Shown here piece by piece: positions 48,311 through 51,517 of a DNA stretch of 64,000 nucleotides. The translations under genes and the position numbers were made by a program. The DNA lies in IMG/VR virus record IMGVR_UViG_3300025883_000003, positions 1 to 64,000 of that record. One strand, 5' to 3'. Source of the DNA: a virus. Position 1 is the stretch's first letter; each line of letters starts with the position of its first letter. The notes beneath the pieces were generated by a model, which saw only the letters and a program-made list of their open reading frames with translations, was not told the DNA's origin and did not search any database.

Positions 48311-48549
48311 GCGATCTACGGAAGGGGGGACCGTCTTGTAAGAAGTGGCGGTTCGTAGCGCGGACGGGGAACACACCCGTTTCGGCGACGGATTTGGGCG
48401 ATCTCGATGAGTTCGTGATTGCGGATTGGCTGCACGCGGAACGGATGTACGACAACGGATGGTGGGTTCAGATCGGCGACAAGGTGTTCGATGTGGTGCT
48501 CAAGAAAAACGGCACGGTAAAGACGATGGTGGAACGCAGTGACGACTAA
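48307..48549 (+). CDS. Small hypothetical protein
   Basis: 80 residues from MSDLRKGGPS in ATGA overlap with the recombinase. Compact alpha/beta (LDEFVIADWLHAERMYDNGW, then IGDKVFDVVLKKNGTVKTM). The start of the large nuclease fusion lies inside its last 11 bases, so the three are coupled. Function unknown. Confidence 0.6.
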   Translation: MSDLRKGGPSCKKWRFVARTGNTPVSATDLGDLDEFVIADWLHAERMYDNGWWVQIGDKVFDVVLKKNGTVKTMVERSDD

Positions 48550-51517
48550 AAAGAAGAAAGCCCGCGCGCTCGATGACGTAAAGCTCACACCGTGGAAGGC
48601 GGTGGTCTTCGGCGATCTGCACGTGTCTCAGAAGACGCTCGACCGCTGCTTAGATACGCTCGCGCGAATACGCGTGCTCGCGCAGACGCATGACGCGATG
48701 GTGATCTGTACAGGCGACTTCTGGCACCAACGCGGTGTGCTGAACGTGCGTCAGATGGACGCGCTACTCGATGAGCTTGAGCAGTGGAAGGGCATCGAGT
48801 TCGTGATCATTCCGGGTAATCACGATCAAGTGAGCCAAGACGGGACGATTCACGGCGTGCGCATGTTTGGCGCGTTCCCGAATATCACCGTCGCGACTGA
48901 GCCGTTGCTTTGGCACCATAGCAAGGTCGCGTTCCTTCCGTGGCGCGAAGAGCCAGGCGAACAAGGCAAGCTCTTCGCGGGGCTCAAGGATGGCGCCCCC
49001 TGGACGGTCTTTGCGCACGCTGAAGTGCAAGGTGCGACAACGAACGGCGCCCATATCTCGCCCGGTCGTGTGAGCATTGCCGAAGTCGAAGCGGTGTCGC
49101 GCGCGTGTTACTGCGGCCACTACCACAAGCGCCAAAAGCTGGGCAAGCACACGTGGTACTTGGGCTCGCCGTTCGAAATGAACTTTGGGGAGCGAGACAT
49201 GCCGCACGGTGTGGCGCTCATCGAAGAGGGCCGCGTGGCGCCTCACTTCATCGATTTCGAAGACATGCCGAAGCACCATCGGCTCGTGTACGGCAAGAGC
49301 TGGAAAGCGGCCGATGAGATCGCGCCGCACGATATCGTCGAAGTGCACGCGCCCGTCGATATCATGGGCACAGAGCGTTTGTCCGAAGTCATGGGCACGA
49401 TTCCCGCGCAAGATGTGCGGACGCTCGTGCTCACAGAGGATGAAGATGAGTTGGCCGTGCCGTCGATCGCCATGGGGCTCGAAGAGGCGATGTACCAATG
49501 GGTACAGGACTGTGACGGCACCGATCTCGACAAGTTCAGGTTGCGCCAGTTGGGGCAGAGCCTTCTGGGGGAGATTCCCGAAGCGCGAGCGGTACAACCG
49601 TTAGCGCCAGAAGTTGCGATTGACCGGGTGACCGTTACGGACTTCTGCGGGGTCCGTGGGGATCGCACCTTCGAGTTTCCCGATGGGGTGACGCTGATCA
49701 AGGGTCCGATGGGGGCCGGCAAGACTTCCATGATGGACGCCTTGACGTGGGCATTCTTTGACACGACCACACCACGCAAGGCCGGGAGCCACGGCGCGAG
49801 TCTTCGGGCCGATGAAGTGGTTCACGATGAGGCCAAAACGTGCACCGTGCGTGCGGAGATTCGTTTAGCCGGCCGGAAGCAGCCTGTGATCGTCACGCGC
49901 ACTAAGAAGCGGGGTTCGGGCAGTAAGGTCAAGATCACGGGGATCAAAGCGCCCGATGGCATCGCCGATCAAGAGTCGCTGATCCAGGCTGCGCTGGGGA
50001 TCAGTCATCCACTTTGGCGCACGTGCGTCTATCTAGGCCAAGGGTCCGTAGGTAACTTCGTGACCGATGCGGACAAGCGCCGTAAAGACCTACTGAGCGC
50101 CGCCTTCGGGCTGGACGCATGCCCGGCCGCCCAAACCTACACGCGCGCCCGTATCAAAGAAGTCGGTGCCAGTATCGAGCGGCTTCGCATGCAGATGGTC
50201 TCTGATCAGCGCGCTGTACAAGTGCTGCAAGAGACGGACTACAAGACCCAGATCGCGCAGTGGGAAACGCAACGCCAAGCCTCGCTCGCAGCCGCACAGG
50301 CGGAAGGCGAGCGCGCCAAAAAACTCATGGCGGAGTGCGATGGGCACATGGCCACGGAACAGCAATGGCTTGACAGTAAGGCGGGCCACGAGGCGCACGT
50401 CGATACACTCACCAAGTCACTGGTCCGGTCTTCTCCGCAGAACAAGGCTGCCGACCTACAGCAACAGTTCGGTGCGCTCAAAGCAGAGCAGGCGATCGTG
50501 GAGCGGGATGAAGCGCTCGCGCGCGCAGAGCTGCAACGGCACTACGAGGCGATGGAAAAGGGGTCGAGCATATGCCCCACGTGTGAACGCCCCTTCGACG
50601 CGTCGCACCAAGAGCAACACGCCAAGGCCCTGGACGACAAGGTGCGGAGCTTTTCGGCGAGCATTCAGACGTTCGATGTGCGCATAAGTGACCTGGCGGT
50701 GAAGATGGGCGAGCTGGACACGGGCGTTGACCAGCAAGCCGAGCACATCGAAGTGCAGATCAAAGAGAGCCGTGCGGCTCTTGAGCAGTGCGCTCAAGCA
50801 CTCAACTCGCTGGCGGTGATCAAAACGAACCGGGTCAACGCGGAGAAGCAGCTTCACGAGGCTCGCGCGGAGTACACGCGCCGGGAGCGCGAAGTGAACC
50901 CCTTTGGCGCCAAGCAAGCGGAGTGCGATGCCAAGGTTGCCGGGCTCACGAGCAAGCTCGCTGCGGATCGCGTCGAAATGGACGCGTACGACGAAAAGAA
51001 CAACGATTTGCAGTTCTGGGAGAAGGGCTTCGGGGCCAAGGGGCTCCCGGTGCTCGTGCTCCGCGCAGCGCTTCACGAGCTAGAGACCTACGCCAACACG
51101 TTCATGGCGCAGCTCACGCGGGGCCGGATCTTCACCAAGCTACTCATGAAGGGGGATGAGCTGAAGATTCACTTCTACGCGGTAGATCCCGTGAGCGGGA
51201 AGGTGCACGAGCGCCGTTATGAGCAACTGAGCGGGGGCGAGCGCCGTTGCGTGGAGCTGGCCTTCAATCCGTTCGCGCTAGGGGAAATGGTGTTCAATCG
51301 TTGCGGGGTCCGCGTCAACACGCTGATCGTGGACGAGTTGACCACGCACCTAGGGCAAGACGAGAAGCCGCTTGTGTGCGATATTCTGCGCGATCTCGAC
51401 CGGCGGTCGGTTGTGGTGATCGACCATGACTTGTCCGTGCAGAGCGAGTTCGATCAAGTGTGGGATCTGGGGGCGGTTGTCGAAGCCGAGCCCGAAGCCG
51501 AAGCGGGGGCAGCGTGA
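48539..51517 (+). CDS. Single-chain Mre11-Rad50 (SbcD-SbcC, gp47-gp46) fusion nuclease
   Basis: 992 residues, GTG start. Residues about 15-240 are a metallophosphoesterase: FGDLHVSQ, TGDFWHQR, PGNHDQVS, FAHAEVQ, GHYHKRQ. From about 365 an SbcC/Rad50 ATPase starts: DFCGVRGDRTFEFPDGVTL and Walker A GPMGAGKTS near 390. A coiled coil carries a zinc-hook CPTC near 679. Then LSGGERRCVELAF near 897 and Walker B TLIVDELTTH near 927. The two proteins are normally separate genes (339 and 560 residues in T4). The fused enzyme would process DNA ends for recombination-dependent replication. Confidence 0.85.
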   Translation: MTTKKKKARALDDVKLTPWKAVVFGDLHVSQKTLDRCLDTLARIRVLAQTHDAMVICTGDFWHQRGVLNVRQMDALLDELEQWKGIEFVIIPGNHDQVSQDGTIHGVRMFGAFPNITVATEPLLWHHSKVAFLPWREEPGEQGKLFAGLKDGAPWTVFAHAEVQGATTNGAHISPGRVSIAEVEAVSRACYCGHYHKRQKLGKHTWYLGSPFEMNFGERDMPHGVALIEEGRVAPHFIDFEDMPKHHRLVYGKSWKAADEIAPHDIVEVHAPVDIMGTERLSEVMGTIPAQDVRTLVLTEDEDELAVPSIAMGLEEAMYQWVQDCDGTDLDKFRLRQLGQSLLGEIPEARAVQPLAPEVAIDRVTVTDFCGVRGDRTFEFPDGVTLIKGPMGAGKTSMMDALTWAFFDTTTPRKAGSHGASLRADEVVHDEAKTCTVRAEIRLAGRKQPVIVTRTKKRGSGSKVKITGIKAPDGIADQESLIQAALGISHPLWRTCVYLGQGSVGNFVTDADKRRKDLLSAAFGLDACPAAQTYTRARIKEVGASIERLRMQMVSDQRAVQVLQETDYKTQIAQWETQRQASLAAAQAEGERAKKLMAECDGHMATEQQWLDSKAGHEAHVDTLTKSLVRSSPQNKAADLQQQFGALKAEQAIVERDEALARAELQRHYEAMEKGSSICPTCERPFDASHQEQHAKALDDKVRSFSASIQTFDVRISDLAVKMGELDTGVDQQAEHIEVQIKESRAALEQCAQALNSLAVIKTNRVNAEKQLHEARAEYTRREREVNPFGAKQAECDAKVAGLTSKLAADRVEMDAYDEKNNDLQFWEKGFGAKGLPVLVLRAALHELETYANTFMAQLTRGRIFTKLLMKGDELKIHFYAVDPVSGKVHERRYEQLSGGERRCVELAFNPFALGEMVFNRCGVRVNTLIVDELTTHLGQDEKPLVCDILRDLDRRSVVVIDHDLSVQSEFDQVWDLGAVVEAEPEAEAGAA

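Follow-up and report, generated by a model that had tools for sequence, protein, structure and literature searches.

The window, a 64,000-nucleotide stretch of a viral record of 107,829 bp, carries an SbcD-SbcC (Mre11-Rad50, gp47-gp46-like) fusion gene on the plus strand at 48539..51517. The gene runs from a GTG start to a TGA stop and encodes 992 aa, and its translation contains no stop between the SbcD/Mre11 and SbcC/Rad50 parts. Pfam recognizes Metallophos (PF00149) at residues 22-197 (35.0 bits, cut-off 21.5), AAA_23 (PF13476) at residues 374-558 (69.9 bits, cut-off 27) and SMC_N at residues 361-972 (43.1 bits, cut-off 40). Among PHROGs, residues 20-346 match phrog_100 (SbcD, 4.4e-38) and residues 361-974 match phrog_77 (SbcC, 1.4e-52), and each half, when taken separately, matches its own model only. 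The fusion is the sole metallophosphoesterase of the virus record, and no other match to the protein was found there. The initial annotation described a complete metallophosphoesterase and a complete Rad50/SbcC ATPase in one 992-residue frame; the Pfam and PHROG matches and the motif sets uphold this description, and we confirm that nuclease and ATPase are both complete within a single frame.

Domain architecture of the fusion protein

The metallophosphoesterase nuclease domain (48596..49258, plus strand; residues 20-240) is delimited by PF00149, by invariant alignment columns and by an AlphaFold2 (AF2) model. The metal-ligand set of SbcD/Mre11, consisting of DxH, GD, GNHD, H and GHxH, is present in full in the sequence and alignment columns as D26-x-H28, D60, N94-H95-D96, H160 and H194-x-H196, and the ligand columns are conserved. 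At the C-terminus of the Mre11 part, AF2 predicts a pair of helices (49478..49570, plus strand; residues 314-344), at 314-323 and 329-344, in a block with pLDDT of about 80-88. This pair is a candidate for the Rad50-binding helix-loop-helix (HLH), a role that the model suggests. It is followed by a linker (49571..49612, plus strand; about residues 345-358 from AF2 and HMM boundaries) that leads to the first Rad50 strand and is approximately 13 residues long in the model, with the helix ending at 344 and the strand starting at 358.

The ATPase part has the split ABC head of SbcC/Rad50, with Walker A, Q-loop, signature and Walker B all present. Its N-lobe (49613..50116, plus strand; PF13476, alignment and AF2) contains Walker A, GPMGAGKT at 389-396, and the Q-loop, LGQ with Q501, and its C-lobe (51029..51466, plus strand; alignment, with SMC_N extending to 972) contains the signature S898-G-G-E (898-901), Walker B D932-E933 and H963. 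Between the lobes, two coiled-coil arms of approximately 145 residues each, predicted as AF2 helices, flank a CPTC hook. The ascending arm (50117..50560, plus strand) covers residues 527-674, and the descending arm (50600..51028, plus strand) covers residues 688-830 as helices 688-783 and 788-830. The zinc hook region (50561..50599, plus strand) holds C679-P-T-C682, corresponding to alignment columns C323/C326; because the Rad50_zn_hook match (PF04423, residues 678-705) lies below the Pfam cut-off, the hook is called from the CPTC motif and its position.

The structure prediction of the full protein that the initial annotation proposed was built from 48 alignment rows, with in-frame read-through rows as scaffolds. 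The resulting model has a mean pLDDT of 82 and a pTM of 0.62, and its nuclease, helix pair, linker, lobes and coils follow one another in order. When the model was used in a fold search, the top PDB matches were Rad50 chains from MR/MRN complexes. The distance from the Mre11 C-terminus to the Rad50 N-terminus is about 28 A, which can be spanned by 9-12 residues (PMC3175470). With approximately 13 residues in the AF2 model, the linker exceeds the about 9 residues expected of Mre11/Rad50 fusions and fits the published geometry for a contact in cis, while falling short of proof. It is plausible that the fusion fixes the stoichiometry at 1:1 and makes the capping/HLH contact intramolecular, as Yoshida et al. 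2011 had already argued for proteins of this kind (PMC3175470).

The fusion gene lies within a replication and recombination cluster that includes, based on Pfam and PHROGs, a DEAD/ResIII helicase, a DnaB helicase, a primase, polA, a RecA/UvsX recombinase and a RuvC-like protein. The family A DNA polymerase gene is at 43060..45189 (plus strand; PF00476, 2.6e-63). The RecA/UvsX-like recombinase gene (47201..48310, plus strand; PF00154, 8.6e-28; phrog_97, 2.9e-60) is upstream, one small ORF away from the fusion, and a gene for a RuvC-like Holliday junction resolvase follows it (51981..52529, plus strand; phrog_1770, 1.8e-30). Adjacent genes share a few bases at their ends, indicating that the cluster is a tight operon. 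Directly before RecA, positions 45846-47201 encode a 451-aa proline/alanine-rich protein that has no Pfam or PHROG match; it has weak homologues at the equivalent position in two related loci discussed below, L031 and L177, and is probably a single-strand binding protein (SSB). Also in the cluster, a 676-aa protein (39406-41436) has a CobT/VWA C-terminal domain (PF11775, 2.9e-20) and matches phrog_1576, a PHROG of unknown function. Elsewhere in the window, an ORF at 62198-63112 opens with MRALVLGGGGSKGPYHLGA...GVSVGA, which resembles a patatin-like phospholipase signature as read from the translation.

Known fusions and the origin of the fused gene

Fusions of Mre11 and Rad50 have been described before. 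Yoshida, Claverie and Ogata reported them in 2011 in Mimivirus and twelve other sequences (PMC3175470), the carriers including Mimivirus (R555), C. kluyveri plasmids, a Deferribacter megaplasmid, Bacillus phage 0305phi8-36, bacteria and several eukaryotes; homologues in viral metagenomes were also described, and recurrent fusion was argued (PMC3175470). Like the window protein, these fusions are single chains with an N-terminal nuclease, a C-terminal ATPase and a short linker, and they occur in mobile elements and viruses; however, they belong to a different lineage. Mimivirus R555 is 1351 aa long with reported long coils of the cellular type, and the Bacillus phage 0305phi8-36 member is missing the capping/HLH part as well as one segment of the ATPase (PMC3175470). 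In the window protein, by contrast, every part is present.

A fold search of viral models returned many full-length matches of 900-1400 residues, including some from giant viruses and from the cultured Tenacibaculum phages pT24 and PTm1. The ORFs were read for these two phages, and one further match, from Listeria phage LMTA-57, looks artefactual. The pT24 and PTm1 fusions are single genes of 1310 aa and 1318 aa; Pfam detects pT24 through its nuclease and PTm1 through its ATPase, and each protein matches phrog_35725 along its whole length. They share with the window protein a single ORF in which a metallophosphoesterase precedes a Rad50-like ATPase with a zinc hook, but they are longer, and their first nuclease motif is D-F-Q or D-I-Q rather than D-x-H. 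The pT24/PTm1 fusion is likely a separate event from that in the window. The novelty implied in the initial annotation thus did not survive comparison with the 2011 report (PMC3175470) and with pT24 and PTm1: the architecture is already published and present in other viruses, and the window contains a further, apparently independent example.

The accompanying statement that T4-like phages and bacteria normally keep the two genes adjacent but separate is right. T4 gp47/gp46 and the exonuclease pairs of Herelleviridae (A511, Moonbeam and iF6) have homologous parts, the same catalytic motifs and short coils, but are encoded by two adjacent genes; the Herelleviridae pairs align at 20-25% identity. 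Related viral contigs were collected by scans that started from conserved motifs in one or the other half. Apart from L002, a second IMG/VR contig described below, none of the 169 contigs with both genes among the matches listed carries a fusion, a count that is not a measure of prevalence. The search for the same architecture therefore found fused proteins in several viruses, while the window's contig relatives, among the matches listed, are all unfused, so that the idea of many fused phage homologues holds only in part. No fusion was found at 13 bacterial genome loci examined.

The arrangement of the unfused genes suggests how a fusion could arise. In almost all of the 169 listed contigs SbcD comes first and SbcC follows on the same strand, and overlaps of a few bases are frequent. 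At 14 sampled loci both genes are in one frame and are separated by just one codon or a few, stop included, so that one or two changes would suffice for fusion. For Acinetobacter plasmid p5768 (L096:2896-5958), a single tblastn match spans both genes, but a TGA stop separates them, and we rejected it as a fusion. In this plasmid (110,966 bp, with recA and ribonucleotide reductase genes), metallophosphoesterase and SbcC are in one frame with TGA and one codon between them, a pair that is one base change short of fusion. Two related phage SbcC proteins contain an apparent intein at Walker A: L194:5392-7686 (GVGK|CLSGST...ITHN|SS, about 154 aa) and L202:4726-7761 (GAGK|CLPEDS...VVTGN|SA, about 350 aa), the latter showing LAGLIDADG-like motifs.

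In the first trees, each half of the window protein groups with viral contig L031 and with L177, a locus in a Myxococcales MAG (SH-aLRT 90 and 91), a sister grouping with less than 95% support in which the window sits on long branches. When a mixture model and more rows are used, both halves still fall near L031 and L177, but their positions are only broadly similar and the forks are not fixed. Both loci have the same gene order as the window, polA - SSB-like - RecA - SbcD - SbcC, but encode SbcD and SbcC as separate ORFs. L177 (CP070713.1 3254354-3267076) is the syntenic cluster on the MAG chromosome, with part of the SbcC region masked with N; it is possibly a prophage, which would hint at a host group.

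The lack of fusions among the 169 listed contigs, together with the separate genes of the nearest syntenic relatives, suggests that two neighbouring genes fused independently. The fusion probably formed locally in this phage lineage, through stop loss or a frameshift between the two genes, and we lean slightly toward the fuller account of a complete SbcDC that was fused recently and independently while its closest syntenic relatives stayed unfused. Alternatively, the gene could have been inherited from an ancient viral family of SbcDC fusions, of the Mimivirus R555-like or pT24/PTm1 type. Giant viruses and some phages do carry fused homologues, and lateral spread has been proposed; given that the pT24/PTm1 fusions are distant from the window in both half-trees and that L031 and L177 are unfused, we consider this origin unlikely.

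Integrity of the reading frame

Independent sequence supports a genuine single frame. L002, an IMG/VR contig of 65,426 bp, is 100% identical to the window over 14,976 bp around the fusion gene. It was assembled separately, begins 539 bases upstream of the window and has other ends. Across the 64 kb that the two share, 28 mismatches and 6 gaps set them apart, and most of these lie near the right end. The presence of the same gene in a contig with different ends and strain-level variants elsewhere makes an assembly error or a shared frameshift error unlikely. In addition, codon-position G+C is equal in both halves and continuous across the junction.

A single frame could still yield more than one product, if the working enzyme also included an internally started SbcC or cleaved halves. 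The nearest in-frame alternative starts, TTG at 49541/49550 and GTG at 49628, are close to the junction, as this explanation would require. However, no in-frame ATG was found near the junction, and no clear Shine-Dalgarno sequence was found at the right distance from any of these codons. Moreover, a start at GTG 49628 would cost the first Rad50 strand, and both TTG codons fall within the predicted Mre11 helix 329-344. These observations make additional products of this kind distinctly improbable.

The Listeria phage LMTA-57 "recombination exonuclease" (KJ591605, L221, ~1640-1680) illustrates how a fusion can be mistaken. It is annotated as one fused protein, but relative to A511 it has a 1-nt deletion in a homopolymer A-run at the junction, and in the listed records of other annotated, near-identical Listeria phages the site is occupied by at least two genes; we rejected this fusion, which is probably a sequencing error or pseudo-fusion. 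A similar error that conceals a stop or frameshift in the window is conceivable, since neighbouring SbcD and SbcC genes often overlap out of frame with each other (one offset accounts for 77 of 110 adjacent pairs) and one indel can then fuse them, but the identity of the gene in two contigs that differ elsewhere, the continuous codon-position G+C and the lack of a frame-0 start suited to a separate SbcC between 49550 and 49628 make it very unlikely, which answers the concern about a hidden junction error raised in the initial annotation.

Proposed function and significance

Mre11-Rad50 is normally assembled from two gene products. We propose, with a probability of roughly 0.85, that the window encodes a natural single-chain Mre11-Rad50 (SbcD-SbcC) end nuclease for phage recombination and repair, formed by local fusion. 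In T4, gp46/47 functions in recombination-dependent replication and repair, and the replication and recombination cluster around the fusion gene fits such a role. The chain would combine an N-terminal Mn-dependent DNA end nuclease with a Rad50-type ATPase that has short arms and a zinc hook. Two fusion chains would be expected to dimerize into the usual M2R2 assembly; ATP binding would clamp DNA ends, and ATP hydrolysis would open the nuclease to the DNA. Processing of double-strand ends in this way would serve repair of the phage genome, its recombination by RecA/UvsX and its recombination-dependent replication. The dimer, the activity, the contact in cis and the biological role are inferred.

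The fusion adds an apparently independent case to a scattered known set, in a family in which some unfused members are one stop codon away from the same state, and it leaves the picture of the family unchanged. This naturally occurring single chain, which combines a complete set of motifs with a short linker, could be a handy reagent for structural work and for asking whether the nuclease and the ATPase operate in cis. If the fusion is indeed recent and independent, it and its unfused relatives would form a natural before-and-after pair for asking whether covalent linkage alters the regulation of Mre11-Rad50.
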